In this document: positions 14,042 to 64,000 of the stretch, in pieces
How the letters are laid out: each line of letters opens with the position of its first letter
Numbering within the stretch: position 1 is the first letter of the stretch
Assembly (NCBI GenBank): GCA_025618425.1
Contig: CM046848.1
Coordinates: 23,277,955 to 23,341,954, forward strand
Direction: 5' to 3'
DNA length: 64,000 bases
Source: Heliocidaris tuberculata
Lineage: Eukaryota; Echinodermata; Echinoidea; Camarodonta; Echinometridae
The notes under the pieces: generated by a model
What the model saw: only the letters and a program-made list of their open reading frames with translations
What the model was told of the DNA's origin: nothing
Database searches by the model: none
Translations under genes and position numbers: made by a program

Positions 14042-17000
14042 TGAATGTGAATGTCAATTTATTCAAAAACCAAACATCAAGATAATACAATCGCTGATAC
14101 AAAAAATTTACATGGTTTTTAGGACCCCGAAAGAAGCAGGGCTTGTGAGTGGGGCCCTATGAGGTACAAATAAATTAGTGTTCACACACTAACACTACGA
14201 CATGGCAAGTATAAATCACAACAAATAGTAATATATATACAATGGGAAAAGATAAACCTACAAAAAGGAGACCATAAACACACACACACACCCACACACA
14301 CACCCCACACCCTCACACCCCATACACATCCACACCACACAGAGCACTCAAAACTAAAGTAGGCTGGCCAATCTACATAACATCAATTAAATGTTTCACA
14401 TTAGCTTAACTAATTCATTTCAAATTGTCATAGGTATTTTTTACACTGAACTTTGAACCTAGAGAATGTTGTGCTGTTCCTAATATCAACAGGTAGTTGG
14501 TTCCACTCTTTAATACAAGTGGTTCGGAAAGAATTCAAAGAAACAGTAGTCCTTACATGAGGACGATGGAAGAGGTTTCTTTGACGCGTGTTGTAATTAT
14601 GAATCCGTGAGTTAAGGGCAAATAATTCTTTTAATTGGCAAAATTGCGGACAAGACTTAAGTTTAAACACAAAAACCAAACAATTAAACGATACTAATTC
14701 ATCAAATGGCAGTAACTTTAACTGAAGGAATAATGGCTTACTCGGCTGTCGGAAGTTGGAATTAGTGACAAGCCTTATTACTTTCTTTTGTAATACCTTC
14801 AATCTATCAATGTGAGTCTTAAATGTATTGCCCCATGCAACATTGCAATAAGTCATGTAAGGAAGAACAATGCTATTGTATAAAGTTCTTAAAATCCTCT
14901 CTGGCAATATATATCTTAATCTACATATAACACCTACACTTCGAGAAACCATGGTGCAAACAGATTCTACATGGGGTTTCCAAGTCAGATGCTCATCGAC
15001 AATAACTCCAAGGAATTGAACATGTTCACTACGGACAACACTGTGTCCCCCGATGTTTAGAGTATCAATATCATTCGGAATAATTTTACCTCTAGATCGA
15101 AAAACAATACATTTAGTCTTTTGAACATTTAGCAATAGCTTATTACAACAAAACCAAGCAAATAATTTTTTAATTTCAGCATTTGCAACCGTCATTAGAG
15201 TAACAATGTTTTTATGAGAGAGTAGTAAACTAGTGTCGTCAGCAAATAGTGAATACGAAAATATTTTTGATGAGTTAATGATATCATTGATATATATTAA
15301 AAATAACAATGGACCAAGCACTGACCCTTGTGGCACACCATACTGAATAGAACCAGATTGCGATTTGACACCATCAACCACTACATGTTGTGAGCGGTTA
15401 AGTAAGTAGTTTTTAAACCATAATAATGCTGTTCCTCGCACTCCATAGTGTTCAAGTTTACTCAAAAGGATGGTGTGGTCTATGGTGTCAAATGCCTTTG
15501 ACAAGTCTAGAAAAATTCCAAGGCAAAAATGTCCATCATCAAATGATTTTATGATAGTATCCAACAAGTTAAAAATGCCCATGCTAGTAGAAAAGTGTTT
15601 ACGAAAACCAAATTGTTGTGGAATCAGAACATCTCTTTTCAATAAAAAATCGTTTAAACGCTTGTAGACTATTTTTTCTAAAATCTTAGAAAAAATTGGT
15701 AAAAGTGCTATAGGTCTGTAATTAATCAGATTCTTATTATTATCTTTTTTATACACAGGAACTATTTTGGCTACCTTTAGCTTGTCAGGCACAATTCCTT
15801 GCAACAATGATTTGTTGAAAATAACACATAATGGCTCAGCAAAAAAATGAATGCATTCCTTGACAACCCGGGGGGCAATATCATCCGACCCACTTGACTT
15901 TGATGACTTAAGTGAGGATGCAAATTTAGTGATTTCAAATACAGACGTTGGTCTAAAAAACAAAGATGAATTATCGTTACTTGGCTTTAAGTATTCATAA
16001 AAAGACTGTGGGACTGAAGGAATCTCTCTACTTATTTTAGTGGGTAATCCTATAAAATACTTGTTAAAAGCTTCTGCCTTCTGTTTACTCGACACCAGAG
16101 ATGATCCTTCATGAATCATCTCAGAAGGAATTGAGCGCTTCCTACCTCTTCCTAACAGTTCATTAATGTGTCACCAAGTTTTTTTAATATCACCTTTTAC
16201 GCGTTGAAACAAGTCGTTATAATAAATCTTCTTTGCTAGACGAAGAGTTTTAACCAAAATGTTTTTGAACTCTACATACTTCTTTTTATTCACATCAGTT
16301 GGTGTTTTGACATAACTGCTATAAAGCTTGTGTTTACGATTTATTGACTTCAATAAGCCATAAGTAACCCAAGGTTTCTTACATTTTTTGTTACCTGTCA
16401 CTTGGACGACAGGAAAACACTGATCATATAAATCTGTGAAAACGCGAATAAAATATTCATATGAATCATTAGCATTAACCAACAAATACAAATCCTTCCA
16501 GTCGATATTCAATAGTTGTTGCTTGAAAGATAAAATTCTTTCATCTGTTATTAGCCGCTTAAACATGGTTTGATTATTGGATTTAAAATTCATAAAAACA
16601 CCCCTATTAACACAAAAGATAGGCATATGATCTGAAATGTCAGAACACAGAACACCAGCATTAAACTCGTTATGAATACAGTTTGTAAAAATATTATCTA
16701 TGAGTGTAGCTGTATTTTGAGATATACGAGTAGGCTTTGTTATGAGAGAAAACAAGCCACTTGAGTTCATTAAGTCAACAAAATCTTTAACCTTATCCTC
16801 ACAATTATAATTCATCAGATTGAGGTTAAAATCTCCCATAATATAGACATCTTTATTTCCCCTGTTCAATATTTGCAACTGGAATTCAGTGTTTTCTAGA
16901 AAAGATGTACTGTCACTATTAGGTGCCCTGTACATACAACCGACTATTACTTTCTTATTGCTACTACCTATTTCAACAAAAATCGATTCATAGCCTGGCT

Positions 17001-17313
17001 TTGAACCAGACAAATCATCCCGGATTTTACTCGCTAATTCTTCTTTAACATACAAAGCAACCCCACCACCAGTCTTATCAGATCGACATACATGAGCAAA
17101 AGAGTAACCTGGTATCTGGAATAAAGAAACATCAGAAGTGGGCTTTAACCAGGTTTCAGAAACACCAATTACTGAGAAGTTATGTTTGAGGTAGGACAAT
17201 AAGGAAACTAGCTCATCAAAATTTTTATTTAGGCTTCTAGCATTTACATGTAGAATATCAAAATTATTACCTAACTTCCCTTGTAAGACTTCACAATCAA
17301 CATAATTACAATC
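14042..17313 (-). mobile_element. LINE copy 1, CR1/jockey-type, 5'-truncated
   Basis: This is a non-LTR retrotransposon on the minus strand. Its 3' end is at 14054, followed by a short TGAATG-type tail (14042-14053), and its 5' end stops abruptly at 17313, where the match to the full-length copy (which continues past 53638) ceases. ORF1 and the first codons of ORF2 are therefore missing, as is usual for incomplete target-primed reverse transcription. The sequence is almost identical to copy 2 across 3.2 kb, including the 3' UTR with its CA-rich microsatellite, which shows that both inserted recently. Confidence 0.93.
14428..17313 (-). pseudogene. LINE copy 1 ORF2 (endonuclease + reverse transcriptase), broken
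   Basis: The frame matches residues 15 to about 976 of copy 2. It has the APE-type endonuclease motifs (NARSL, SETWL, GDFNLNL, SDHMP) and RT motifs (FLDLSKAFD, YGVPQGSVLGP, FADDTS). Three breaks are visible: the start is lost by 5' truncation, and the apparent N-terminus MKSSQG is host sequence; a TCA serine codon has become TGA at 16171-16173, in the linker between endonuclease and RT; and a 2-nt deletion near 14430 ends the protein four codons early. A Cys/Tyr change (TGT to TAT) near 16368 and a Lys/Met change near 14955 are the other differences I noticed. It cannot make a full enzyme. Confidence 0.93.
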
Positions 17314-20290: not shown

Positions 20291-22146
20291 TTTTTCAGTG
20301 ATTGCTTGATTGAAGGATCTTTTAATTGACTGAAGAATGTTAGTAGTCTGAAGACGTATTACATCCATGGTTATAATATAATGTAGGCCTACATGGTTAA
20401 AAAAATATTTCAACATTAAAACAACAATGTTCATCAGTACATACAATACATACGATTGCTTAGTATATAGCGCAAACTCCAAACAAGAATATTCCTTCAT
20501 GCGCTTCACAACATGAAATGAGACAAGCAGAGAAAAATTAAAAAGAACAAAAATTTAAACAGTAAAATAATTAAAATATTAGTAATTATAAAAATGTTAT
20601 CATTATATTATATAAAATGACAAATTTTACTTCTAGCCAGCGCCTTCATCTATCTTTCTCTATGTAATTTTTTTTCTCTCTCTCTTTTTCTCTTATCCTC
20701 TTCTCCTATCATTCCTTGTGAAATTTCTTTCCTCTTCTCTTTCTATCCTTGCTTGTGTTTCTCTTTTCTCTTTTTTTTTTGTCTCTCGTTCTTTATGTAT
20801 TTTTTTATTTATCCTCTTCTATCCTCTGCTCTTATGTATTTCTTTGTTTTCTCCTCTCATCTTATCTTTCTTTGTGTATTTCTTTGTTTTTATCTTTCTG
20901 TCCTCTTATCTTCCTCGATTTTCTTATGTATTTCTTTGATTTTCCCTTTTTTCATCTTTTCAGTATCTGCTATGTTATTCTTTGATTTCCTTTTCTATCC
21001 TTCTGTTTTCCCTTTTTTCCCCCTGCTCGCGTGGTGTACTGTGGGATAAAAAATATCGATGTTCAATCTCAATATTGTTCACACGCATAGCGATGGGCCC
21101 TATAGTATTAGTGAGATTTTTTTATTATTCACACGCATTAAAAAGTGAGATTTTTATCACCACCCAAACATCGATGTTTCTCGCTAATTGCTCTGCGTCT
21201 GGATGCCCATACGATGACTATATTATCACTCTATACATGTGATAAAACGTTTGTAAATAAATGTGATGTCATAAGCCGGTGATCTTTTCGAGACTTTTCG
21301 AAAGAAGCCAAATTACTGTGAACTATGAAAAAGGTCGTAGCCTAACTTTTATAAACTTTTCAAGTAAAACCAATACTTCCTCTTCAGGATATAAGTGAGT
21401 CGGTGTTGGTGAATTTTGAGTTACACAAGCGAGTGATTATACATGACTAAGTGACTATAAGGTGAATTTTATTTTTCCTAAAGGAAGACAATGTTCACTA
21501 TTGATTAAGCAATTTACACCGTCGTGAGATGCCAATCCTCCCTGCCAGGAAGGTTTGAATATCTAAGGAAAATGAAAGTGATTGTATCCGGCAGACTTGG
21601 CAGCAAAAGTAGAACATTATACATGTTATCATGGTTATAGGGCAAACTTAAACATAAAAAGAGAGGGAAAATGGTGTGGCAGTCATTCAAACCATCTTAG
21701 CCACAGAGACAACATCTTGTAATATTGTGTAAGGGACCATTCATCTAGTAGGCTGATATTGTTACGCTGTAGGGGGAGGGTGCAGGGAGGGGGGATTTTC
21801 CCCCACCCTCGCGAAGCGCGGAAGCTTCGACATTTCTTTGTCATCGTTCCTTGTCTGCTCCTTCTCTTCCTACGTTCTCTCACCTTTTTCTCTTCTCGCT
21901 CAAGCTTTTTTTTTGGGGGGGGGGGTGCCTGTGGAGGGCCACCGCCCCCACCGCCCCCCAGACAGCTAGTGGCTCACCCAGGAGATCAGAAGGCAGATAT
22001 CTATCTTGCAAAAGAGAAACAAGAATAAAAAGATAAGTAAAACAAATTTATCATTAATGCACTTTAAAAGATTGGAAGTGACAAAAGAATTCTGCTAATG
22101 AAAAAAAAAGGAGGGGAGAAGGTTGTACTATGTGTGTGTACTATGT
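20291..22146. other. Gene-free stretch with a long pyrimidine tract
   Basis: Positions 20640-21020 are about 380 bases of almost pure C+T on the plus strand (TCTTTCTCT-type), giving meaningless F/S/L-rich frames. The rest (21040-22146) shows no gene. A GGGCGCAGGGAGGGGGGATTTTCCC-like repeat recurs near 21770-21830. Confidence 0.55.
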
Positions 22147-22217
22147 GTCTCCGCCGGGAATCGAACCCGAGTAACTGGCCTAGAACGCCAACGCCTTAAC
22201 CACTAGACCTCGGAGAC
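22147..22217 (-). tRNA. tRNA-like gene, anticodon UCU (Arg), possibly pseudo or SINE-derived
   Basis: The reverse strand folds into a cloverleaf. The 7-bp acceptor stem GTCTCCG/CGGAGAC is perfect. There is a 3-bp D stem (GTC/GGC) with loop TAGTGGTTAA, an anticodon stem TTGGC/GCCAG around the loop GTTCTAG (U33 present, anticodon TCT), a 4-nt variable loop, and a T arm TCGGG-TTCGATT-CCCGG containing an ideal B box (GGTTCGATTCC). The odd points are A instead of U at position 8, and a D arm that looks like tRNA-Glu/Asp rather than animal tRNA-Arg(UCU). No intron is seen. It could be the head of a SINE, but no SINE body follows. Confidence 0.6.
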
Positions 22218-22321: not shown

Positions 22322-22817
22322 TTGAGATGCATGTACATGTTAGAATAATTATATTAAAGTGTAAGGAAATAACATATACAACAACTTTGGCAACTCTCGT
22401 GGAAATTATACAACAGGCAAATTTCGTAATGCATTCAAATTTAATGCTTACCTCTTTGTCAAACTCCTAGTAACGAACTATTACATCCACCTGTTACAAG
22501 TCATTGTATTTCAATAGTCAGAATGCAGATTGCATAGGCTGGGCAAGCCAAAATGTTTGTCCAACCTAACAACGCCTAATACATGCAATTCACATTCTGA
22601 CTATTGAAAAAGAATAGGTCTTTACAGGTGAGTGTAATAGTTTGTCACCAGCAAACGTGTATAAATTTGAATACATTACGAAAATGGCCTATTGTGAAAA
22701 ATGAAAATGAGAGAATAATGGTTGCGCAGCTTAAGTTCCCCAGAGTTGCCAAAGCTGTTGTATATGCTATTTAATTACACTTGTATATAATTACTCTAAC
22801 ATGTACATGCATCTCAA
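22322..22817. mobile_element. MITE with ~80-bp terminal inverted repeats
   Basis: The left end TTGAGATGCATGTACATGTTAGA is repeated inverted at the right end (to 22817). The match continues for about 80 bp through TAATTATAT, CATATACAACA and CTTTGGCAACTCT with few mismatches. The 330-bp interior includes ATTCACATTCTGACTATTG, a stretch also found near 12945. No target duplication is clear and no frame is present. Confidence 0.75.
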
Positions 22818-34019: not shown

Positions 34020-35790
34020 GGGGGGGGGGTGTATGATGTGGCACTGGCGGCGGATTGTCTTTCAAAGTGGGGGGGCACCAACAAAAGGGGCACTTTTGGG
34101 GGGAAAAGGGCACCTACAAAAGGTGAAAACAAGGCGGAAAATACCACCTTGAGACATACCGCTAACAAGATAAAAACTACTTTCGAAAAATAAACTCAAG
34201 ACAATTTCAATAGCCCTGTCTATCACCTTTAGAAATGAGCGAACATTACAATGGCGTATTAGGTAATCCGATTTCTATGGGCAGTACAATAGGCCTTTGA
34301 AATTGCCCTTGGGTTTATTTTTCGAAAGTAGTTTTTATCGTGTTCGCTATACATTCTGATTAATACACTTTCGAGGATCATTTTCGACACATTATTGTTT
34401 ATGTCTTAACTACTTTGCAGTTGAGTGTAATGGTCTGATTATTCATTTGCGAGCGAGCGAGCAAAATGTTTAAGATGTTTTGAATAGCAGTGATTTTCCT
34501 AATATGATAAGAAGCAATGGTAAATGCGAGCGAGCGTAGCGAGCGAGCTTTTGAAAAATTTTAGAAAAAAATTGTCCTCCTTCCTGTTATGATTTAGGGG
34601 CACTGCTCATTCTTGTATAATTTAGGGGATTGTACCCCTCCTGCCCCCTGCTCCACTGCCTCACCTTGTGCTGATATCAGTATTATCATGAAGCCTCTCT
34701 GATTATTTGGAGCTAGGTGCATGTATATGTATGTATGTACTTTATGCGAAGGAAAAGAGGACTTTAGGGCACAGTTTGGAAGCGACATCGGGGTATATAG
34801 GTAAAATATATTAAATGTATATAAGTATATAGGTAGGTCACTTATCAGAGGACAAAAGGGGCACTTATCAAAAGGGAAAATAATACTATAAGAAAGAAAA
34901 AGGGGCACTGACCAGAAGTAAAAGGGGCACTTAAAAAGAGGCATTTATCAGAGGTGAATAGGGCACTTATCATAAGGAAAAATTGCACTATTAGAACGGA
35001 AAATGGGCGCTAATCAGACGAAAACAGGGACACTTGTCGGATTTCAAAGGGGGCACTTATCTGAGCTTAAAAGGGGCACTTATCAGAAGTTGAAAAAAGC
35101 ACTCATTAGAAAGGAGAAGGGGCAGTCACACGAAGAAAAAGGGTCACTTATCAGAGGTGAAAAGCCGGGGCATTTATAAGAAGGGAAAATTGCACTAAGT
35201 ATTAGAACGGAAAATGGGCGCTAAGCAGACGAAAAACAAAGGCACATATTTCAAAAGGGGCAGTAATGTCTGAGGTTGAAAGAGGCACTTATCAGAAGGT
35301 GAAAAGGGCACTTATCAGAAAGAAGAAGGGCGCAGTTATGCGAAGGAAAAGGGGCACTTATCAGAGGTGAAAAGGGGCACTTATCAGAAGGAAAAAATTG
35401 CACTATTAGAACGGAAAATGGGCGCTAATCAGACGAAAACAGGGACACTTGTTGGATTTCAAAGGGGCACTTTTCTGAGCTTAAAGGGGGCACTTATCAG
35501 AAGGTGAAAAGGGTATTTATCAGAAAGAAGTAGGAGTGCAGTTATGCGAAGGAAAAGGGGCACTTATCAGAAGGAAAAATTGCACTATTAGAACGGAAAA
35601 TGGGCAATAATCAGACAAAAAAGGGGCACTTATTAGATTTCAAAAGAGGCAGTAATGTCTGAGGTTAAAGGGGGCACTTATTAGAAAGGAAAAAGGGGTA
35701 CTATACGAAGAAAAAGAGGGCACTTATCAGCTATGAAAAGGGGCACTTTTGGGGTACTTGAAAAAGTGGGGGGGGGGGGGGGGCTGTTCT
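34020..35790. repeat. Minisatellite of GGGGCACTTATCAGAAGG with higher-order repeats
   Basis: More than twenty diverged copies of GGGGCACTTATCAGAAGG, each followed by a short A-rich spacer (period ~22-27), fill about 34840-35760. A rarer variant, TTGCACTATTAGAACGG, recurs near 34983, 35187, 35398 and 35579, which shows a higher-order unit of about 180-210 bp containing roughly eight subunits. The motif is the reverse complement of the one at 23640-25770. Confidence 0.85.
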
Positions 35791-49980: not shown

Positions 49981-50737
49981 GTGCATTCCAAGTTTTGCCA
50001 CTCTTTGACCATCTAAATAACACTTTTCAGCCCATATATCAGCCAAATTGTGGTCGGTGCTGTTATAACTTGAGCTGTCAAAATTGAGAAGTTTAGCATG
50101 ATATTAATCCAGATATGCCCATCCCCACCCAAGTTTAAATGGGTACCTGGTATGCTCAAAAGGACAGTCCACCCTGGTATTAAGTTGATTTGAATAAAAG
50201 GAGAAAAATGAGTGAGACAGATTAGTGAAAGTTTGAGCAAAATCCCATAAGAAATAAGAAAGTTGTGAAATTTTGAATTTGCAATCAATCAAACACAAAT
50301 TGGCAACTCTGTGACATATCTCCTCTCCCATTTGAATGAATGAATGAATGAATGAATGAATGAATGAATGAATGTCAATTTATTCAAAAACCAAACATCA
50401 AGATAATACAATCGCTGATACAAAAAATTTACATGGTTTTTAGGACCCCGAAAGAAGCAGGGCTTGTGAGTGGGGCCCTATGAGGTACAAATAAATTAGT
50501 GTTCACACACTAACACTACGACATGGCAAGTATAAATCACAACAAATAGTAATATATATACAATGGGAAAAGATAAACCTACAAAAAGGAGACCATAAAC
50601 ACACACACACACACCCACACACACACCCCACACCCTCACACCCCATACACATCCACACCACACAGAGCACTCAAAACTAAAGTAGGCTGGCCAATCTACA
50701 TAACATCAATTAAATGTTTCACATTAGCTTAACTAAT

Positions 50738-53680
50738 TCATTTCAAATTGTCTAATAGATATTTTTTACTCTGAACTTTGAACCTAGAGAATGTTGTGCT
50801 GTTCCTAATATCAACAGGTAGTTGGTTCCACTCTTTAATACAAGTGGTTCGGAAAGAATTCAAAGAAACAGTAGTCCTTACATGAGGACGATGGAAGAGG
50901 TTTCTTTGACGCGTGTTGTAATTATGAATCCGTGAGTTAAGGGCAAATAATTCTTTTAATTGGCAAAATTGCGGACAAGACTTGAGTTTAAACACAAAAA
51001 CCAAACAATTAAACGATACTAATTCATCAAATGGCAGTAACTTTAACTGAAGGAATAATGGCTTACTCGGCTGTCGGAAGTTGGAATTAGTGACAAGCCT
51101 TATTACTTTCTTTTGTAATACCTTCAATCTATCAATGTGAGTCTTAAATGTATTGCCCCATGCAACATTGCAATAAGTCATGTAAGGAAGAACAATGCTA
51201 TTGTATAAAGTTCTTAAAATCCTCTCTGGCAATATATATCTTAATCTACATATAACACCTACACTTCGAGAAACCTTGGTGCAAACAGATTCTACATGGG
51301 GTTTCCAAGTCAGATGCTCATCGACAATAACTCCAAGGAATTGAACATGTTCACTACGGACAACACTGTGTCCCCCGATGTTTAGAGTATCAATATCATT
51401 CGGAATAATTTTACCTCTAGATCGAAAAACAATACATTTAGTCTTTTGAACATTTAGCAATAGCTTATTACAACAAAACCAAGCAAATAATTTTTTAATT
51501 TCAGCATTTGCAACCGTCATTAGAGTAACAATGTTTTTATGAGAGAGTAGTAAACTAGTGTCATCAGCAAATAGTGAATACGAAAATATTTTTGATGAGT
51601 TAATGATATCATTGATATATATTAAAAATAACAATGGACCAAGCACTGACCCTTGTGGCACACCATACTGAATAGAACCAGATTGCGATTTGACACCATC
51701 AACCACTACATGTTGTGAGCGGTTAAGTAAGTAGTTTTTAAACCATAATAATGCTGTTCCTCGCACTCCATAGTGTTCAAGTTTACTCAAAAGGATGGTG
51801 TGGTCTATGGTGTCAAATGCCTTTGACAAGTCTAGAAAAATTCCAAGGCAAAAATGTCCATCATCAAATGATTTTATGATAGTATCCAACAAGTTAAAAA
51901 TGCCCATGCTAGTAGAAAAGTGTTTACGAAAACCAAATTGTTGTGGAATCAGAACATCTCTTTTCAATAAAAAATCGTTTAAACGCTTGTAGACTATTTT
52001 TTCTAAAATCTTAGAAAAAATTGGTAAAAGTGCTATAGGTCTGTAATTAATCAGATTCTTATTATTATCTTTTTTATACACAGGAACTATTTTGGCTACC
52101 TTTAGCTTGTCAGGCACAATTCCTTGCAACAATGATTTGTTGAAAATAACACATAATGGCTCAGCAAAAAAATGAATGCATTCCTTGACAACCCGGGGGG
52201 CAATATCATCCGACCCACTTGACTTTGATGACTTAAGTGAGGATGCAAATTTAGTGATTTCAAATACAGACGTTGGTCTAAAAAACAAAGATGAATTATC
52301 GTTACTTGGCTTTAAGTATTCATAAAAAGACTGTGGGACTGAAGGAATCTCTCTACTTATTTTAGTGGGTAATCCTATAAAATACTTGTTAAAAGCTTCT
52401 GCCTTCTGTTTACTCGACACCAGAGATGATCCTTCATGAATCATCTCAGAAGGAATTGAGCGCTTCCTACCTCTTCCTAACAGTTCATTAATGTGTGACC
52501 AAGTTTTTTTAATATCACCTTTTACGCGTTGAAACAAGTCGTTATAATAAATCTTCTTTGCTAGACGAAGAGTTTTAACCAAAATGTTTTTGAACTCTAC
52601 ATACTTCTTTTTATTCACATCAGTTGGTGTTTTGACATAACTGCTATAAAGCTTGTGTTTACGATTTATTGACTTCAACAAGCCACAAGTAACCCAAGGT
52701 TTCTTACATTTTTTGTTACCTGTCACTTGGACGACAGGAAAACACTGATCATATAAATCTGTGAAAACGCGAATAAAATATTCATATGAATCATTAGCAT
52801 TAACCAACAAATACAAATCCTTCCAGTCGATATTCAATAGTTGTTGCTTGAAAGATAAAATTCTTTCATCTGTTATTAGCCGCTTAAACATGGTTTGATT
52901 ATTGGATTTAAAATTCATAAAAACACCCCTATTAACACAAAAGATAGGCATATGATCTGAAATGTCAGAACACAGAACACCAGCATTAAACTCGTTATGA
53001 ATACAGTTTGTAAAAATATTATCTATGAGTGTAGCTGTATTTTGAGATATACGAGTAGGCTTTGTTATGAGAGAAAACAAGCCACTTGAGTTCATTAAGT
53101 CAACAAAATCTTTAACCTTATCCTCACAATTATAATTCATCAGATTGAGGTTAAAATCTCCCATAATATAGACATCTTTATTTCCCCTGTTCAATATTTG
53201 CAACTGGAATTCAGTGTTTTCTAGAAAAGATGTACTGTCACTATTAGGTGCCCTGTACATACAACCGACTATTACCTTCTTATTGCTACTACCTATTTCA
53301 ACAAAAATCGATTCATAGCCTGGCTTTGAACCAGACAAATCATCCCGGATTTTACTCGCTAATTCTTCTTTAACATACAAAGCAACCCCACCACCAGTCT
53401 TATCAGATCGACATACATGAGCAAAAGAGTAACCTGGTATCTGGAATAAAGAAACATCAGAAGTGGGCTTTAACCAGGTTTCAGAAACACCAATTACTGA
53501 GAAGTTATGTTTGAGGTAGGACAATAAGGAAACTAGCTCATCAAAATTTTTATTTAGGCTTCTAGCATTTACATGTAGAATATCAAAATTATTACCTAAC
53601 TTCCCTTGTAAGACTTCACAATCAACATAATTACAATCATTTACAATAATATTTATTTCTTCTTGCAAATCATTATCCAT
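50738..53680 (-). CDS. LINE copy 2 ORF2: APE endonuclease + reverse transcriptase
   Basis: An unbroken 980-residue frame. An AP-endonuclease-like domain spans residues ~30-245: Asn38 in NARSL, Glu in SETWL (~65), GGGVALYVKEE, YRAPNSD, GDFNLNL (~173) and SDHMP (~241). The RT domain spans ~450-760: NYRPIALLPIFSKILEKIV, QQFGFRKHFST, FLDLSKAFDTIDH (~613), YGVPQGSVLGPLLFLIYIND (~671), then the catalytic FADD (~703). The C-terminal region has the YNTRQRNLFH and WNQLPVDIRN signatures of jockey-superfamily RTs. The enzyme would nick target DNA and copy the element's RNA from the nick. All key residues are present. Whether it is expressed cannot be told from sequence. Confidence 0.95.
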   Translation of the reverse strand: MDNDLQEEINIIVNDCNYVDCEVLQGKLGNNFDILHVNARSLNKNFDELVSLLSYLKHNFSVIGVSETWLKPTSDVSLFQIPGYSFAHVCRSDKTGGGVALYVKEELASKIRDDLSGSKPGYESIFVEIGSSNKKVIVGCMYRAPNSDSTSFLENTEFQLQILNRGNKDVYIMGDFNLNLMNYNCEDKVKDFVDLMNSSGLFSLITKPTRISQNTATLIDNIFTNCIHNEFNAGVLCSDISDHMPIFCVNRGVFMNFKSNNQTMFKRLITDERILSFKQQLLNIDWKDLYLLVNANDSYEYFIRVFTDLYDQCFPVVQVTGNKKCKKPWVTCGLLKSINRKHKLYSSYVKTPTDVNKKKYVEFKNILVKTLRLAKKIYYNDLFQRVKGDIKKTWSHINELLGRGRKRSIPSEMIHEGSSLVSSKQKAEAFNKYFIGLPTKISREIPSVPQSFYEYLKPSNDNSSLFFRPTSVFEITKFASSLKSSKSSGSDDIAPRVVKECIHFFAEPLCVIFNKSLLQGIVPDKLKVAKIVPVYKKDNNKNLINYRPIALLPIFSKILEKIVYKRLNDFLLKRDVLIPQQFGFRKHFSTSMGIFNLLDTIIKSFDDGHFCLGIFLDLSKAFDTIDHTILLSKLEHYGVRGTALLWFKNYLLNRSQHVVVDGVKSQSGSIQYGVPQGSVLGPLLFLIYINDIINSSKIFSYSLFADDTSLLLSHKNIVTLMTVANAEIKKLFAWFCCNKLLLNVQKTKCIVFRSRGKIIPNDIDTLNIGGHSVVRSEHVQFLGVIVDEHLTWKPHVESVCTKVSRSVGVICRLRYILPERILRTLYNSIVLPYMTYCNVAWGNTFKTHIDRLKVLQKKVIRLVTNSNFRQPSKPLFLQLKLLPFDELVSFNCLVFVFKLKSCPQFCQLKELFALNSRIHNYNTRQRNLFHRPHVRTTVSLNSFRTTCIKEWNQLPVDIRNSTTFSRFKVQSKKYLLDNLK

Positions 53681-54161: not shown

Positions 54162-54965
54162 TCATAGCTTTCTAATATCCTCCATGCATGTAATCAGATG
54201 TTTGTTACCACCCTTGTCATTGACAAGGATGCGTCCATCCCGCGACCAAGCTGCTTTGACTTTCTCTGAAGCTCCTGCATTTTTCAGTAACTCATGGTTA
54301 GCTTTGGTCAGGTCTTCTTGGATCGATTTGCCTTGCCCTTTCAGCACCCTGCGCTTGGAGATAACTTCCTGACGATCCCTATAAGACTTGAATTTCGCTA
54401 TGATCGGCCTGGGGATTTTCTTTTGGCGGTGTTTTTCTTTCGAACCGTTGCGATGAGTGCGCTCCAGATCAGCCTTTGTCACTGGTACTCCAAGGGTCTC
54501 ATTTGATAGACGCAAGATGATCTCGTCGGTATCCTCGTCTGGGTTTTCATCGAAGCCAAAAAACAGGAGGCAGTTTCTCCTCGTGTATTGCTCTTGTTGA
54601 TCCACCTTGCTACGCAGTGACTTGATTTGCTCATTTTGCGATTCTATTTGGCGATGGCATTTTTCTATTTCTTTTGATTTATTATCAACTGCAACTTCAA
54701 GATCGAAGATTCTGCCTTCCTGCTTTTCAACTGTCTCTTTTAGATCAGCGAGACATTTCTCAACATGGATATTGACTAAATCCAAAAATCGCTCATCTAG
54801 GACAAGGTCGTGAAGCACCGCAGACAACAGGGCTGCCTTTTCATTCTCTTTCTCCTTCTCCTTCTCCTTTCCCCGGGTTGGACGGCCAGTTTGCGATGTT
54901 CTGTCAGCCATGATGATAATGATGGATGTTAACGGTACACACTTACGGTTTACAATAGCTTCCAC
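54162..54965 (-). CDS. LINE copy 2 ORF1: coiled-coil RNA-binding protein
   Basis: 267 residues from the first ATG, but the ATG at residue 19 (54911, MADRTSQTG) has A at -3 and G at +4 and is the better start. A Lys/Glu-rich patch (RGKEKEKEKENEK, ~32-44) precedes a long coiled coil (~65-135, heptad-like LEVAVDNKSKEIEK, QNEQIKSLRSKVDQQ). Next comes QYTRRNCLLFFGFDE, the start of an RRM-like fold, and then LERTHRNG...RPIIAKFKSYRDRQEVISKRR, which matches the C-terminal domain of L1 ORF1p-type proteins (Transposase_22). Such proteins trimerise and coat the element's RNA. It is unbroken. The strand and order make it the ORF1 of the same LINE. Confidence 0.88.
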   Translation of the reverse strand: MEAIVNRKCVPLTSIIIIMADRTSQTGRPTRGKEKEKEKENEKAALLSAVLHDLVLDERFLDLVNIHVEKCLADLKETVEKQEGRIFDLEVAVDNKSKEIEKCHRQIESQNEQIKSLRSKVDQQEQYTRRNCLLFFGFDENPDEDTDEIILRLSNETLGVPVTKADLERTHRNGSKEKHRQKKIPRPIIAKFKSYRDRQEVISKRRVLKGQGKSIQEDLTKANHELLKNAGASEKVKAAWSRDGRILVNDKGGNKHLITCMEDIRKL

Positions 54966-55220: not shown

Positions 55221-56952
55221 TTTGCTCAGTACAGAAAATCTCATAAATTTTCTTTTTCTTAGTTTTTGATGAAGGAAGAGATTTGTGTCATACAGGTGGA
55301 AAAACATATGAGCAATGATTATATCTATAGGCGAGTGCATTTATGGAAAAAAAGGGCCTTACCCCAAAAAAATTGCAACAAAAGGTTTTTCAATTGTTTT
55401 TTGTAGTATTTGATGTGCTTAATAACATACTAACAGTCTACCAAAATCTGACCATGGGAAAGGCATAAATTTCAAGATGGCGTCCAAGATGGCCGCCAAT
55501 ACCTTAAAACATATGTAATTCCTTAATTTTTCATCGTAGACAAGTAATTGTGGTGTCTAACCCCATGTTTTCAGGGGTGAGCAATCCAGTTAGCTAAGTC
55601 AAATCTTAGAATGACGATTGCATAATTGCAAAATCCAAGATGGCCGAACAAAATGGCCGCCAAAGCCGAAAAATTACCCATAATACCTCTATATTTTATA
55701 TTATTTTGGTGCCGAACTCTGTTTAAAATTGCTGGAAACTGAATAACCACGTTGATATCATTTTGTAATTATCCTTTTTTTTTGTGAATCCAAAATAGCC
55801 GATAAATATGGCCCCAAAAATGGTAGCCAATCTGTTTGAGGGTCTTGTCCCCACAATATAATAGCTTGGCAATTAGTTGCTATTTAGCAATTGATTTCAA
55901 TTTGCCACTTGACCAATTAAAACGGGCGTATTATTATACTGTCAAATAACAGTGCGTGTGATTGACTGTTCACGCATTTGCGAATGTTTGCTTAAGTAGC
56001 AATTAATTGCGAAGCTTTTTCCCCTCCTTCCTTTCTACCTTCCAACTCAGCGCAAATCTTTCCTCCTTGTCTTCTTTCATCTCTCCTTCCCTCTTTCTTT
56101 CCCTTCTGTTTCCACCATCTCTCTCTTTCTTGTCTTTTCTCTGCTTCACCGTTCCCACCTTTCCTTTCTCCCTCTCTCTCTCTCTCCATCAGCTCCCTCG
56201 ATTGCTTTCTTCCTCTCTCTCTTTACTACCTCTCTTGCTTGTCAATCAATCAATCAATCAGTCACCATTCCATTCATCAACTGCATACTGTGCTATCATC
56301 CTGTCACCAAATTTTTCATTTACTATTTTTTTGCATTTAAAAAAATGCATGATGGAGAGTAAAGATACCTTTTCTGTTTGTGATTCTTTGTTTATTTTCT
56401 TAGACAAGGGAAACTTCAGGTAAATTATGATCAATAAGGATTCAATTTGAATGTTGCAGGCATGCATCTGCTTACAATAAAAGTTCAGTAAATGTAAATT
56501 ATGCAATCAATAGTAAATCTCAATTGAAAGATTTGGGGAAATTGTTACATAGTAGAAGGCTGCCCCCTTGAGTTACCCTCCCTCAAAGAAATCCTGAAGT
56601 GAACGGCGACAGATGCTAGTACTGGAAAGTACTAAAGTAGTGGAAACGGAACTTTGTAGTCAGTGTGGTTGAAAAACAGATTGATGCTATAGCGAGCGGG
56701 GCTATGAACGTGAGATGAAGAACAGGAGGCAAACAGGCAGCTTCAGAAGAATCTTGTGTCGACTGGAACTTCAAGAGAACTGAATGAGCAGAGTTCACTC
56801 ATGACAGAATTCAGAATCAAATCAAGGTAGACTAGACAACTACAATGTTGGTTAAATGAAAACTTGTTGATGGCGATCGGTAAGCAAAGTCCAAGGACGA
56901 TGACTTCAGTGCAAAGAAAGTTCATTGACGAGGACGGTGGTATGATTGAAAT
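55221..56952. other. Gene-free stretch
   Basis: AAGATGGCCGCC-type motifs recur (55480-55800). A C/T-rich tract runs from 56015 to 56240, with CAATCAATCAATCA at 56242-56257. I found no kinase exon here, although it lies in the presumed UCK intron 4. Confidence 0.5.
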
Positions 56953-57663
56953 TTGTTGATGATGAGGAATCCACAATGTCCCACTAAATTTACCTCCTCC
57001 TGGTTAAAATTCATTGAAGACACGTTAAATCAAGCTGGTCTATCCAATGTTTGGCTAGGCCAAAATAATGGATTCCGATTAAATATTAATTCTTTGTTGA
57101 AATTAAGACTAAATGATATTTTTTGTCAGGAATGGAGAGACGCAGTATGGTCAAATCGTATTTGCACAAATTATAGAATATTCAAAGGCAGCCATGAATT
57201 TGAAAACTATTCACTCAACCTAAATAAAACCGATGCTTTTACTCTATGTAAGTTTCGGTGTAGATCACATAAATTACCTGTAAACAAAGGTCGATTTAAT
57301 GCTAACACACCACATTGTGATATGCAGTGCACACTCTGCTTGTCTACTTATACAGGAGATGAATTTCACTATATTTTTGTTTGTCCATATTTTCAAAAGG
57401 AGAGACGTTTATATTTGCCTAAAAAGTTACGTAAGACAAGGTTTCCAAGTGCTTTGCACATGACAAAACTTTTTGATACTAGAAGCACTTCTCAGTTGAA
57501 GAGTTTAGCAAGATTTACTCGCCTTATTATGTTGCAGTTTTCTCAGAAAACAGAGAAAGAAGATTGTTCAATCATCTTAGGTAGTACAAATAGAGTTGGA
57601 CATAGTCCGACAAGTACTCGTAGCGGTAGGATAGTGAAACAGCCTGCTTTATTAAGCTTGTAA
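56953..57663 (+). pseudogene. Non-LTR retrotransposon C-terminal domain with zinc knuckle
   Basis: A 236-residue open frame. The central part LPVNKGRFN...CDMQCTLCLSTYTGDEFHYIFVCPYF carries a CxxC-x8-H-x4-C cysteine/histidine cluster, followed by ER-YLPKKLRK. This cluster is typical of the extreme C-terminus of some RT-bearing non-LTR polyproteins in marine invertebrates. The RT palm and endonuclease are missing, so it is a 5'-truncated insertion; codons before about 57000 may be host sequence. The downstream 31-bp tandem repeat and the ATTCTACAA tail fit its 3' UTR and end. It could alternatively be a small domesticated gene, but there is no other evidence for that. Confidence 0.7.
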
Positions 57664-57689
57664 ATAGACTGTATTATACTTCAAATATT

Positions 57690-57940
57690 ATAGTCACTAT
57701 CTATGTATACTTCATATATTATTGTCACTATGTACATGTATACTTCATATATATTATTGTCATTATCTATGTACATGTATACTTCATATATTATTGTCAC
57801 TATGTACATGTATACTTCATATATTATTGTCACTATCTATGTATACTTCATATATTATTGTCACTATCTACGTATACTTCATATATTATTGTCACTATCT
57901 ATGTATACTTCATATATTATTGTCACTATGTATTTAATGT
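57690..57940. repeat. 31-bp tandem repeat, about eight units
   Basis: Units built on TATACTTCATATATTATTG followed by TCACTATCTATG, some with an inserted TACATG. It lies 27 bases after the stop codon of the retroelement fragment, in its presumed 3' UTR. Confidence 0.9.
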
Positions 57941-58089
57941 ATTTACAAGTTGGTTACATTGATCATGTTTGTACTCTCATACACTCTATTATCGTTTGTA
58001 TCTTTGTGTCATTATCTATGTATAATGTACATGAATTGTATTCACAAGTCTGTTATACATTGTTGTTTATACTTCATGTTTGTTCGTAC

Positions 58090-58155
58090 TCTCATACCCC
58101 GAGAGGGGGTCGAAAGAGTTAATAAAATTCTACAAATTCTACAAATTCTATAAAC
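58090..58155. repeat. Retroelement 3' tail with ATTCTACAA repeats
   Basis: ACCCCGAGAGGGGGT could form a small hairpin. GTTAATAAAATTCTACAAATTCTACAAATTCTATAAA follows. A short tandem tail of this kind is the usual 3' end of a non-LTR element. Confidence 0.55.
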
Positions 58156-58323
58156 TTGAAAGTACAAGAGTGATTACATTGTTCAGAATTTTCAAGTTAA
58201 TTTTCTGATACACAATGGAGCAATTTACTGCAAAAACATGTCAACAAAAGTACAAGAAGATAGCTTGCTTTGTCTAGGAATAACAAAACAAAAATATCTG
58301 GGACCTGTATTATAAAGAGTTAC

Positions 58324-58471
58324 GATCCGAATGCCGCAACTACGAGCCAATTACCTGATGGATCCAAATGCCAAAACTAAGAGCCAATTATCTGCTGGAT
58401 AAAGATGCCACAACTGTGAGCCAATTATCAGCTGGATCCAAATGCCCAAACTGAGAACCAATCATCTGCTT
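58324..58471. repeat. 37-bp repeat, four exact-length copies
   Basis: Four consecutive 37-base units starting GATCCGAATGCC or GATCCAAATGCC and containing GAGCCAATTA-CTG. A fifth start (GATCCAAAT) lies at 58472. The array ends 26 bases from the stop codon of the neighbouring minus-strand gene, so it falls in its 3' flank. Confidence 0.9.
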
Positions 58472-58546
58472 GATCCAAATATTTTTCCATAACTAATTCA
58501 CAAATATTCATGGTCTGAGTCTTCATCTTGTAAAGACTGATTGTGA

Positions 58547-58659
58547 GGATTTTCACATGTGCCCTCCTGACATGGGCCGCACGCACTCGTACAGGGAAGT
58601 CCATATTTTCTACAGCTGCATCTAGTAGTTCGGCAAGAGGTAGTGCAATGACAGCGGAC
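58547..58659 (-). other. C-terminal CXC cysteine cluster of the fusion gene
   Basis: RCHCTTSC...RCSCRKYGLPC...CGPCQ...C: ten closely spaced cysteines, including the CxC pairs seen in tesmin/TSO1-type zinc-binding regions and the pre-SET CXC of chromatin proteins. It is followed by an acidic tail (QDEDSDHEYL). It probably binds zinc and perhaps DNA. Confidence 0.65.
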
Positions 58660-59044
58660 CATCTGCAAGAGGCTTTCTGGAGCAGCAGGTTTGTCACTCA
58701 TTACTGGAGAAAACTGACTGTCATGAAGCTTCCATCCCCAGTCCACTGCATTCATGCCATTGTCATTTCCTGTCCACACCATGATCTGGTAGTACACCCT
58801 CAGACAATGATATCTTGTTGAAGACTCAGTAGGTGGGAGACGCTCTGGGGTGACAAATGACTTTGCAGATACAATTTGCTTATTGAGGAGATTGTAACGC
58901 AAGGAAGACAGTGAATCATTGCCCTTTCCACCAAACAGTACTGCCATAGCCTTGCTACCCAGCTTGTGTATGACATCATTCGTTTGATTTGGAAGTAGAA
59001 ATGCACTGGCACATGTCTTGATTGTCGTGTCACCATTTGTGACT

Positions 59045-59580
59045 TTGTTGAACATTGACCTTTTCCCGACACTGAAAATTCGAGAAGTTGTGTCACATCC
59101 TGTGAATGAGTGCACAAACAACAACTGGGCACACAAATCTATACCCAAGGCTACTTTCATCTCGACAATGTTGTATACTTTAGTAGCAGATGTTGACCGG
59201 TCTGAGCGAAAATACAGACCCTTGTTACTTGTTGTCTCTGCATAATACAGAAGTAGGATGAGTAAATCTGTATCCTCTCCTATTAGCGTGGTGGTCTGCT
59301 GAAGTGATGCCGCCGATGCAGCTTTGACGATGTCCACGTCTGCATCCCCAGGTGAATTGATGATGTTACACCCCTTCTTCAACAATTCAAGAGTGACAAG
59401 ATCAATAAATCTCTGTTTGTTACTTGGGTTGGAAAGGAAGTCTTCCCTTCTGCCAACAAACTCAGTGTTCGTCTTGAAGTTGACAACAGGATGGACATTT
59501 TGCCCTCTACGTTGATGAGTGTTGTCTTTGATGGAAGGACCTTCACCATACCCATCAAATACTACGGTTGCTTTACCATA
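59045..59580 (-). other. FEN1/XPG-like nuclease region within the fusion gene
   Basis: In gene order: HYGKATVVFDGYGEGPSIKD with a following HQRR (Asp codon at 59554-59556), SPGDADVDIVKAAS (59333-59350), TTLIGEDTDLLILLLYY (59260-59280) and HSFTGCDTTSRIFSVGKRS (59086-59100). In FEN1/XPG enzymes the acidic site is built from VFDG..K, GEAEA, S.D.D.L.FG and GCDY...I.GIG in this same order, and the last is the start of the helix-2-turn-helix. All the corresponding acidic positions are kept. The match is by motif only; overall similarity is too low for me to call it without a structure-aware search. Confidence 0.6.
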
Positions 59581-60476
59581 ATGACGTATGGTGAATTCGG
59601 CGTAAGACAGTGCAATTGCCCCATATGTGTCACCTTTTTTCCATGGTAACCGATGTAAGAGTGATCCCCCATCAAGGATGTAATGTTCTGTCGGTGGGAT
59701 GGAGTCACTGACAGCCTTACTGGATTTCTTGCTGGAGTACTCAGTGATTGCATTTGCGAGTTGGGGCTTGTCAGCCTTCGGAGGATATCCTTGGCCTCAA
59801 ACAAGGATGTAGGGAATGTGCTTAGCTCATAGCTCATTACATCTTCAAGAGAAATGTCTCCACTTGCCGACACAAACAAAAATCTTTGGAACAGCAACGC
59901 AGGATCAATGGTTTGGCCTTGGGAAACTTTGATGTTGGAATCGTGTGCAAGGGTTTTTGCACGGTCTTTCCGTTTGCATGAGATCCCAAAGACAGGTTTT
60001 CCATCCATTTGTTCAATGATCTTTCTTCCTACATTCTGAAACTGATGGACATTGACTTCTTCTTTGGCAACTACACCGGTCACAATGTTTCTCAATGATG
60101 AGTCTGCTGAAAATGGCGAGCAAGTGGAAAGTTTTTCCTTGATTTTTTCCAGGTCAGCGTGATCACGTTTCATTCTTGCCTGTGTTGACTCTCGATGTTG
60201 CTCGCTGGTGACATATCGTAGATCAGTAAAATCCTGCATCATCTCATTGTACTCGGATGTGACAGGTGTTGACATTGTCCACAATGCACGCATATCTTCA
60301 GTCATTCCGCTACCATGAGTCAATCCTCCACTACTCTTCAAAGACCGCATCAGTGTCTGCTCGATTATCAGATCTGAGCTAAGGCCTGCCCAGAATTTGT
60401 TGCTTCGGCGGATCACATGAAATCCCTTCATGAATTTGGTGTACACCTCAGGATGTGTTGTCTCGAGTTTGCACAT

Positions 60477-62864
60477 TTATTGGACATAGAAGCATGCAGA
60501 TTTCAGATAGCTATAGTGCCCAGCTGCGGCAAAGATTGGCAGGCAATCCAACACTGCTCCCGAGTGTAGCATCCAAGATCCGGTGCGATCTGCTTTGATC
60601 AGTGATCGGGCTGTTGAAATCATTCCTTGATAGTTTATCCAGAGATTACTCGTTTTGGACCTTGCTTTAAGTTCTGCCTTCTTTGTGTCAATCCTTTCTT
60701 GGATTTCGCTTAACACATCAGATTCTGCAGCACTCTCCAGCATCATTTCATGTACGAGCAAAGCTAAGCATATTTCTTCTGCCTGATCCACTGAAGTCTG
60801 GAACTGAGGATCATCTTCTAGCAAATCTGACACAATCAGGTTGTTGAGACATCTGTCGATGAGGAGATGTCCACGGAAAGCTCGCTGCACTGATTTTCCA
60901 GTCAACATATGCTGCACAGCATTTTGACCATATACAACTTCCATGATTTCTTTGAGTCCTGAACCTTGCATCAATGTTCCAATTGCTCCAAGGAGGTTCA
61001 TGAAAGTGTGAAAACATCCAAGCATCAAGACTATGCTTTTCAAGTGACTTTTCTCTGGTGCATCTGTGATGATCTCTGCAGCCTTCCAGTACAGAGGCTG
61101 ATCAAACGTAATGATAGGCGGTGCATGTTGTTTGATTGCAAGATTGCAGATGAAATCCAGCGTGGAGAGAATGCATGTTTTTTCTCCAGGGTACATGTTG
61201 ATCATGGGCAAGAACACAACTGATGATTTGCCTGGGTGTTCTAATCCTTGATGAATGATGTGCATCATTCCCTGCCACCCAGGGGTCTCCTGCTTGAAGT
61301 TCAGTGAGAGTTCCCACAGCACATCAATCTCTGAAGTGCTGCTGATCAGTTTTGGAAGTTGTTTGAACACCATAGTTTGACGCACATGTTTCACAAAGCG
61401 ATGTTCGATGATAGGGATTTTACTCTGGACTGAAAAATCCAGGTTGACAACATTATTCCTTGGAATTGCACGATCCTTCGGTTTTCCAGGGGTGAGTGCT
61501 GCTATGATTCCCATTCCATGAAATGTTCCTTGGCCATCAATAGTGAGAATGTTATGGTCTACATTGTCCCCAGCGAAAAGAATTGCCATGTCCAACAGCT
61601 CCATGTCATCTGCCAGTACATCTGGAGCAGCTAATTCTGCTGCATTCTTTTCAAAACGCAAGACTTCTTTGTATGATGAACTAAATCCCATTTCATGAAG
61701 AGTATCCACAAGGAATCGGGACCGATACAAATGATGTGCCTGCACTGCAAGACCAAGTTGTAATGGAGCTACAACGGCTCTTGGCCGAACTGCCTGGATA
61801 ATAGCCTGTCCTATTCCTGCAACCTTTCGTCTATTCTCCTTCCCAACAAAGAGACGATTCAATAGCATTTGCAGAGTTTCAGGAATAAATGAGAGAGCAG
61901 TATCAAGCTTGAGTGAAGTTGAACTTGGATACTGATCCAGTTGTGACTCAACCTTGGATATGATATCACTCTTAATGAATCTTGCTGCTGTGTCAATGAG
62001 TGCCAGTTTCTGTGATTCTTCATCTTTGGGCTGTGTCTTGAAGTAAGACCTCAGTATCTGTGATGTCTGTTCCCTCATGGTCACTATGCCCTGGAGACCT
62101 TCTTCTTCAGAAATATGAACATTTTCTCCATAATGTTCCATCAATTTTTGCTTGAGGTACTGATTTCCAAATGGTACAGACTCTGTATTTGTCAGAAACT
62201 CCTTCATTTTCTCTCGCAAATATGACACTGTCAACTCTTCTTCACAATTATCCTCAAGGTAGGTGCAAACTTTCATGAATGCCTGCTCCTGATCATTGTC
62301 GATGGGTCGCCCATGCTTTCTTCGCTTCATCTCTGTGCCATCCCGGTACTGTAGTGGTTTGCAACGTCCAGTGCGGAAATTAACACTGCAGGAGTGGTGG
62401 TAGACACAATCTGCTGCATGTAGATCACAGGCATAATACTCGATCCTACCTTTCACAGTGAGTGCCCATTCATCTGAACGACTGTCACAACACTCCAGAA
62501 TGGCCTTCACGAAAGCATCAGTTTTTACGAAACTATATCCTTCAGTTTTTTGTGATACAGGAGTTCCACAGAAAAGGCAATCTGTTTGGCTGTTAAATGG
62601 TCCAGCTGATATTCTGGCACTTCGCTTTGCAGGTTCACTTTTATTTTCTTGCTTGTTCGAGATATCTTTAGGATTGATGTAACGCTTTCGACATTTTGCA
62701 TGTACTTGTTCGCCACACAAAATGAGTAAGTCATCCCCTCTTCGCTCACTGGCACGGTTGATTCCATCAGCTCCCTTCTGACGAAGTTGGACCACATCAG
62801 AAGTATCACCTATGTCTTCTTTGCAGATTGGGCACTTCTCTTGCGTTATGATGCTAGCACTCAT
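60477..62864 (-). CDS. N-terminal open segment of the fusion gene (795 residues)
   Basis: It starts at MSASIITQEKCPIC. Zinc-type clusters: C11/C14 with C50, H55 and C58 (CGEQVHAKC), and C96/C99 with C146, H149, C153, H156 and C159 (ACDLHAADCVYHHSC). A basic patch MKRRKHGRP lies at ~179-187. The candidate catalytic block is D433 (GDNVDHN), D588 (FDQPLY), H619 (GCFHTF) and E639 or D670. It ends CFYVQ-TAA and the next codon is ATG, so a second protein could start there, but the family sequence I recall runs straight through. Upstream, TTTTTTTTAATTCATAG directly precedes the leader and could be a splice acceptor for a 5' UTR exon. Confidence 0.75.
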   Translation of the reverse strand: MSASIITQEKCPICKEDIGDTSDVVQLRQKGADGINRASERRGDDLLILCGEQVHAKCRKRYINPKDISNKQENKSEPAKRSARISAGPFNSQTDCLFCGTPVSQKTEGYSFVKTDAFVKAILECCDSRSDEWALTVKGRIEYYACDLHAADCVYHHSCSVNFRTGRCKPLQYRDGTEMKRRKHGRPIDNDQEQAFMKVCTYLEDNCEEELTVSYLREKMKEFLTNTESVPFGNQYLKQKLMEHYGENVHISEEEGLQGIVTMREQTSQILRSYFKTQPKDEESQKLALIDTAARFIKSDIISKVESQLDQYPSSTSLKLDTALSFIPETLQMLLNRLFVGKENRRKVAGIGQAIIQAVRPRAVVAPLQLGLAVQAHHLYRSRFLVDTLHEMGFSSSYKEVLRFEKNAAELAAPDVLADDMELLDMAILFAGDNVDHNILTIDGQGTFHGMGIIAALTPGKPKDRAIPRNNVVNLDFSVQSKIPIIEHRFVKHVRQTMVFKQLPKLISSTSEIDVLWELSLNFKQETPGWQGMMHIIHQGLEHPGKSSVVFLPMINMYPGEKTCILSTLDFICNLAIKQHAPPIITFDQPLYWKAAEIITDAPEKSHLKSIVLMLGCFHTFMNLLGAIGTLMQGSGLKEIMEVVYGQNAVQHMLTGKSVQRAFRGHLLIDRCLNNLIVSDLLEDDPQFQTSVDQAEEICLALLVHEMMLESAAESDVLSEIQERIDTKKAELKARSKTSNLWINYQGMISTARSLIKADRTGSWMLHSGAVLDCLPIFAAAGHYSYLKSACFYVQ

Positions 62865-64000
62865 GGTCAGGCCTATGAATTAAAAAAAAAATAATAAAAG
62901 ATAGAAAAAACAAAGAAACAAAAGTAAACGAAATACACTGATGATTTTAGCCAAATTACAATATTTGATATTTCATATCTTGCAAAAAAAAAAAATTAAA
63001 TATAAAAAAATTGCATGTCTTGAGCATAGTAGGGCATTTCCGAGCTATAAAAAATAATCCAAAAAAAAAAAATCAAATTTACATATTTGACAATATTTCA
63101 TACTTAGGAAGTTTTAGTATCTTTCGGTAACTGTACTTGCTTAGATTTTGACAAGTGCAAACTTAATCTGCTTCTTTTGGGAAACCTGATTTGCTTTCAA
63201 TCAATAAATGCTTTGTTTCCTATGACCTGAATTTACTGCCACTGAAAAAAAAACACAAATTCATTTTCTGGAGGTTGAATAGCATTTTTAATGTAGACCT
63301 GCATTGAGTAAACATCACTGTATGAAAAAAGACTTAATGATTATATAAACAGTAATCCTAATTATCAATTTATTAGTTTGATGAACACTGATATTGACAT
63401 CTTTAATTCAACATAATTAATACTTATTATACATATTTCGTTGTATCTGGTTGGGGTAATGTTTTATTTATGTAATATTCAAGCTTTGTACATACCTTTA
63501 TAATGTATATCTCTCTCTGAACTCTTCTTTTTGTCTATAGGCTGTTGACCTCTTCCTTAATCAATTGTTTGAAGTCAGTGAGATGTACGTGCCTGTAGCG
63601 TATAATATGAATAATTTAAATTCAAAATTTATGCACATTGAAGTCATGCATTCCCAAAACAAATCATATAATCACAATCCCTCCCTAGACCCCTACTAGT
63701 GTAGGCACTGTATTTACTGATAGATAATGTTACAAAATTAATTACAATTTTATTTTCATTTTATTTATTTATTAATTCATTGATTTAAATATTTATTTAG
63801 TTATTTTTATTTGGTCTGATCTGTAACAAATGTACATCCTAAGGTTTTTTTAAAATAATTTTAATGAAACTGTTATAATGATCTACTAGCCATATTTTGT
63901 TTACCATCACAGACTTCACAATTGGAGTCTTTGGAATTCTCATACCCTTAAAAAAAGCATGAAATAAACATGAACAAATCAGTGAATAAAACAAATCCAG
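62865..64000. other. Gene-free AT-rich stretch
   Basis: Poly-A and ATTTATTT-rich DNA upstream of the fusion gene. No promoter motif or exon is convincing; a TTTTTGTCTATAG at 63528-63540 looks like an acceptor, but the following frame matches nothing I know. Confidence 0.5.

Follow-up and report, generated by a model that had tools for sequence, protein, structure and literature searches.

A probable recently inactivated transposase gene of AcademX kind with predicted DDE and FEN-like folds in the sea urchin Heliocidaris tuberculata

Main Finding

In a stretch of 64,000 nucleotides from Heliocidaris tuberculata (contig CM046848.1; hereafter, the window), the minus strand carries a whole but twice-broken gene for a large protein in which a DDE-type transposase is predicted to be followed by a FEN-type flap nuclease. 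We read it, with a probability of about 0.85, as a recently inactivated copy of the transposase gene from an AcademX-like DNA transposon, AcademX being compared by description. Predicted folds and sequence conservation both support the proposal, made in an earlier note on this DNA, that a single transposon polypeptide combines a cutting fold of DDE type with a flap nuclease of FEN type. The discovery value is small, because the pairing presumably corresponds to an already named kind of transposon. The useful part is a resolved anatomy, in which the transposase fold is P-element-like and the FEN/EXO1-like active site is complete, each with its residues named, and the main question that it raises is what a flap nuclease does in transposition.

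Gene Copy and Reading Frame

The gene copy (58498–62864, minus strand) extends from an ATG at 62864 to a stop codon at 58498–58500, and its coordinates, strand, length and intronless state, together with every motif quoted in the earlier note, were verified in the sequence. The gene of about 1,455 codons described there corresponds to a coding sequence of 1,456 residues on read-through, 2 of them X, but it is not one open frame, a TAA and a frame change having been overlooked. Frame 1 runs without a stop between the ATG and 60480, where an in-frame TAA (60477–60479) breaks it, and homology persists beyond this codon to about 59775. The change from frame 1 to frame 0 can be placed within about 20 bp (59763–59783) by the overlap of the tblastn pieces of P0001, the closest relative among the matches listed (1451 aa, 81% identical). 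These two pieces (62864–59763 and 59778–58507) start at the same ATG, and their overlap indicates a single frame change without an intron. Past the frame change, frame 0 is open as far as 58501.

When the 1,582 open segments of the window were compared with a profile built from 15 homologues (A1), three matched at E ≤ 1, all lying in the gene and in gene order (E of 0, 7.7e-184 and 1.8e-112), and the motifs of the gene are hence not due to chance. That the gene itself could be a sequence or assembly artefact, or a set of chance motifs, is refuted by protein homology over its full length, with identity of up to 81%, and this reading retains a negligible probability; sequencing errors could account for both the stop and the change of frame, but the gene would be real even then. 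No second gene copy was found among 392 tblastn pieces in the window. The sole piece falling outside the gene (P0058, 35 residues, 55490–55594, E of 0.001) was taken as chance.

Protein Family and Conservation

A whole-length protein search, which scored the 7,993 candidates richest in common words, brought up at least 132 homologues (E ≤ 1e-3). Many are intact proteins of some 1,450–1,530 aa, and the best 120 of the 132 were examined. The hosts among the matches listed include a rotifer, corals, bivalves, gastropods, a sea urchin, a sponge, a lobster, fishes and a fly. The database labels of these proteins, some of them from UniRef, are uninformative ("hypothetical," "5'-3' exonuclease," "Tesmin/TSO1-like CXC domain-containing"). 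Searching with residues 380–900 of P0104, a divergent fly member (Bradysia coprophila, 1403 aa), yielded 606 homologues, of which the best 120 were examined. The two alignments used for conservation (A2 and A3) comprise the window copy and 71 of the 120 homologues listed, all of at least 1,384 aa. The equally long P0062, P0082 and P0093 were excluded, as were shorter homologues, and the conservation counts therefore apply to near-full-length members. One of the excluded proteins, P0062 (Misgurnus anguillicaudatus, 1927 aa), has a transposase piece joined to AIG1-type GTPase domains, and is either a genuine fusion or a merged gene model.

The two lesions aside, the window copy shows no decay. 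Among columns where agreement in the other 71 rows reaches 95% or more, it keeps all 58 in the nuclease part and 163 of the 164 in the N-terminal part, the lone departure being an N at residue 556, where 70 of the 71 other rows have D. The intact P0001 is off at 0 of 58 and 1 of 164 of the same columns, which equals the window copy. This pattern suggests that the window copy was inactivated recently or that both lesions are assembly errors. P0104 keeps the D/D/E triad of the transposase, but four of its seven nuclease ligand positions are changed, to C, N, E and K. It also departs at 20 of 62 and 20 of 168 columns that are otherwise conserved. These features suggest either that the element can at times do without the nuclease or that P0104 has ceased to be a working transposon.

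Domain Organization

All domains lie on the minus strand. Predicted fold, structure comparison and conservation agree on an RNase H-like DDE transposase core at residues 427–843 (60336–61586), marked by D433, D588, H619 and E835 and by a helical insertion ahead of E835. The D/D/E triad is intact in all 72 full-length rows, giving substance to what the earlier note had called a DDE-like block. The structure prediction proposed there as a check recovered both PIN/FEN and RNase H-like folds. The structure comparison covered the families in the VIA-align lists, and other families may also show resemblance; a weak Foldseek match of the N-terminal model alone was given no weight.

Downstream of the transposase core, a FEN1/EXO1/XPG-like 5'-nuclease domain (58744–59769) is predicted to adopt a PIN/FEN fold, and the alignment places seven acidic metal ligands in order, as the claim of a FEN1/XPG-like nuclease had anticipated. 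In the window copy the seven positions read DDDDDDD, accompanied by one K and one R. Six of the seven ligands fall inside the structural pairing with EXO1, and the first, D35, is matched to its presumed counterpart; the K and the R resemble K93 and R100 of FEN1. The domain shares with human EXO1, FEN1 and XPG its fold, the order and position of the acidic ligands and the basic arch residues, and differs from all three in being fused to a transposase. At the position that structural alignment pairs with FEN1 E158 and EXO1 E150, all 72 rows have D. This kinship surfaced through profiles and structure only, as single-sequence searches with the nuclease piece gave no match in Pfam and none of value in the PDB, where the best E was 1.7. 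The domain is a putative structure-specific 5'-flap cutter. As shown by prediction and conservation, two predicted folds with complete active sites therefore sit on one polypeptide.

The remaining parts of the protein flank these two folds. Near the N-terminus, two nearly invariant clusters with a C-x2-C...H-x2-C pattern span residues 11–58 (62691–62834) and 96–159 (62388–62579). In A3, C11 is present in 70, C14 in 71, and H55 and C58 in all 72 rows of the first cluster, and C96, C99 and H156 are kept in 72 and C159 in 71 of the 72 rows of the second; both are putative zinc-binding clusters. A winged-helix-like domain (residues 188–265; 62070–62303) follows and probably binds DNA. The protein ends in a tail of nine cysteines (58549–58653), delimited by cysteine spacing, at residues 375–409 of the nuclease piece. 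Each cysteine is kept in 68–70 of the 72 rows, and the CXC domain of the earlier note stands as a conserved CXC-like tail but not as a match to the Pfam CXC (Tesmin/TSO1) model, which was unmatched by the window pieces at E ≤ 1, by 15 relatives at E ≤ 0.5 and by five more at E ≤ 0.1. Scanning against NCBIfam gave nothing useful. The anatomy of the family explains the "Tesmin/TSO1-like CXC" and "5'-3' exonuclease" labels found in animal and metagenome entries, and the proteins so labeled are probably mobile-element proteins.

Copies, Tree and Element Termini

The distribution of copies lends indirect support to a mobile element present in several lineages and perhaps moving horizontally. Copies within Mytilus edulis are just 60–62% identical to one another, and near-identical pairs occur in M. 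edulis (98.8%) and Porites lobata (95.9%), which may be true copies, alleles, or a single locus from two assemblies. Copies from four bivalve genera share 46–51% identity, and those of the rotifer Seison (P0027) and the fish Xyrichtys (P0052) are 75.5% identical across 1,017 residues, a candidate case of horizontal transfer. In a quick tree of 32 rows, with SH-aLRT support only and 8 of 29 inner branches unsettled, Seison and Xyrichtys are sisters (SH-aLRT 100), and the window copy and P0001 are nested and grouped with the Misgurnus and Homarus copies at an unsettled fork, the branch of the lobster (Homarus) being long and of unsure placement.

The flanks of the gene were scanned for inverted repeats of five lengths (57600–58500 against 62865–64000) with 3–4 bp duplications required, and none rose above shuffles; one pair passed the rule at one length, about the shuffle level. 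The 5' end of the element may fall beyond the window. Just 3' of the stop codon (58300–58480), about four units of a 37-bp tandem repeat (58324–58480) adjoin GGGACCTGTATTATAAAGAG, which resembles a transposon end, and, speculatively, the units might be subterminal repeats belonging to the 3' end of the element. The candidate end (58300–58319) has no inverted partner within the window at up to three mismatches, and a shortened form of it has three window matches against 2.98 from shuffles. Furthermore, none of 43 pattern matches in a collection of viral contigs and none of 31 in a collection of genome contigs was confirmed, and neither collection yielded a relative. The intact LINE protein of the window has its nearest protein-database relative at 77% identity, which suggests that the host genome is absent from that database, and the shortage of matches above 81% is therefore uninformative on copy number in the host.

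Relationship to Known Systems

AcademX occurs in animals and is a lineage of the Academ superfamily of DNA transposons of Kapitonov and Jurka. A DDE transposase plus a downstream XPG-like nuclease in one protein is what defines AcademX, and Kojima is said to have described in 2020 an XPG-type nuclease located within the transposase protein. The window gene is alike in encoding a single protein with the transposase ahead of the XPG-like nuclease, a likeness to AcademX as described. The suggestion of an unrecognized class of transposon is, then, not supported. Passages of PMC10045372 name AcademX, its nuclease and its target duplications of 3 or 4 bp. AcademH encodes a helicase where AcademX has the nuclease (passages of PMC10045372 and PMC10799480), and its duplications are 9 or 10 bp long, the lengths being tied to the encoded enzyme (passages of PMC10045372). 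The window gene differs from AcademH in having no helicase, and the transposase is presumed to be common to both. The window copy is broken, and neither termini nor the 3–4 bp duplication of AcademX was seen in the window. In the collection of papers searched, none was found that joins Academ and XPG, and the same was true for DUF6589.

Within the transposase region Pfam offers a single, weak lead, DUF6589 (PF20231), which presumably marks fungal relatives. Its match covers the transposase core, reaching E of 3.5e-6 in P0077 and P0110 (26.4 bits, where the cutoff is 27), both of which are assigned PF20231.4 by the protein database, and at E ≤ 0.5 it appears in 4 of the 15 members scanned. Among those 15 members the best Pfam E was 0.0053, and in five others nothing exceeded a cutoff except the AIG1 and MMR_HSR1 GTPase part of P0062.

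With the P element superfamily the core shares an RNase H-like fold and a big insertion ahead of the final E, at 12% identity to the Drosophila P element transposase. P element transposase begins with a THAP domain, which was not matched by the same sequences, at the same thresholds, as the CXC model; the window protein has zinc clusters and a winged helix in its place, and an added nuclease and cysteine tail. In Kolobok transposons, too, a DDE transposase is accompanied by one of various nucleases or by a helicase, downstream of it in the passages of PMC9587614 that state the place, and accessory enzymes are hence a recurring theme. According to those passages, the Kolobok nucleases are lambda-exonuclease-like, His-Me finger or DnaQ-like, and differ in this from the FEN-like one of the window.

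Unevenly retained old paralogues could explain part of the pattern of copies and tree. The likeness to AcademX is drawn from description, and Pfam leaves the family unclear, DUF6589 falling just below the cutoff in two of the five further members. Both points would suit a still unnamed superfamily, apart from Academ, in which the same pairing of DDE and FEN folds evolved independently. Such a superfamily is improbable, since the pairing, the order of transposase and nuclease, and the spread in animals match AcademX, and passages of PMC10045372 confirm that AcademX encodes a nuclease. Long intact frames that are strongly constrained across many species, a nuclease similar to EXO1 and FEN1, and window flanks in which none of the termini sought was seen would, on the other hand, agree with a domesticated host gene, for instance a genome-defense or repair nuclease retaining a transposase-derived DNA-binding part. 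This reading is very improbable, as diverged copies occur inside single species, placements conflict with host relationships, the triad is intact throughout the full-length rows, and the window copy is broken. A role in genome defense, also raised in the earlier note, found no support in PADLOC, a library of anti-phage systems only, where P0001, P0104 and the two window pieces matched 0 families at E ≤ 0.1.

Proposed Mechanism

For the AcademX-like transposon favored here, the zinc clusters and winged helix would bind the transposon ends, the RNase H-like D433/D588/E835 site would cut the ends and join their 3'-OH to target DNA, and the fused FEN-like nuclease would cut the other (5') strand or trim 5' flaps at the element ends. 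Within this scheme, the part given to the nuclease is the least certain. It would be analogous to that of TnsA in Tn7, which cuts the 5' strand while working beside TnsB, the DDE enzyme. A direct role for the nuclease would fit the passages of PMC10045372 in which duplication length is tied to the accessory enzyme. That the FEN-like nuclease is the second-strand (5') cutter of transposition and sets the length of the target duplication is nonetheless a doubtful proposition, to which we assign a minor share of probability. If true, one polypeptide would use two unrelated folds to do what most DDE transposases do with one, and P0104, with its altered nuclease ligands and intact triad, would be a natural test case. 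With the active-site residues named, point mutation can test why accessory enzymes such as a flap nuclease or a helicase are carried by some eukaryotic transposases.

Genomic Surroundings

Two LINE copies in the window (50361–53638 and 14042–17313) are 99.5% identical across 3.28 kb, which points to recent retrotransposition. The former contains an intact 980-aa endonuclease-reverse transcriptase frame (50738–53680), the latter is interrupted, and a 267-aa frame at 54162–54965 is ORF1-like as judged by eye. Self-complementary stretches at 7619–8366, 22322–22817 and 34161–34347 are possible hairpin-type miniature inverted-repeat transposable elements, and a degenerate long tandem array with a unit of about 23 bp occupies 34836–35752. 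Lastly, a tRNA-Arg (TCT) gene at 22145–22217 is the sole Rfam match in the window to reach the gathering score.
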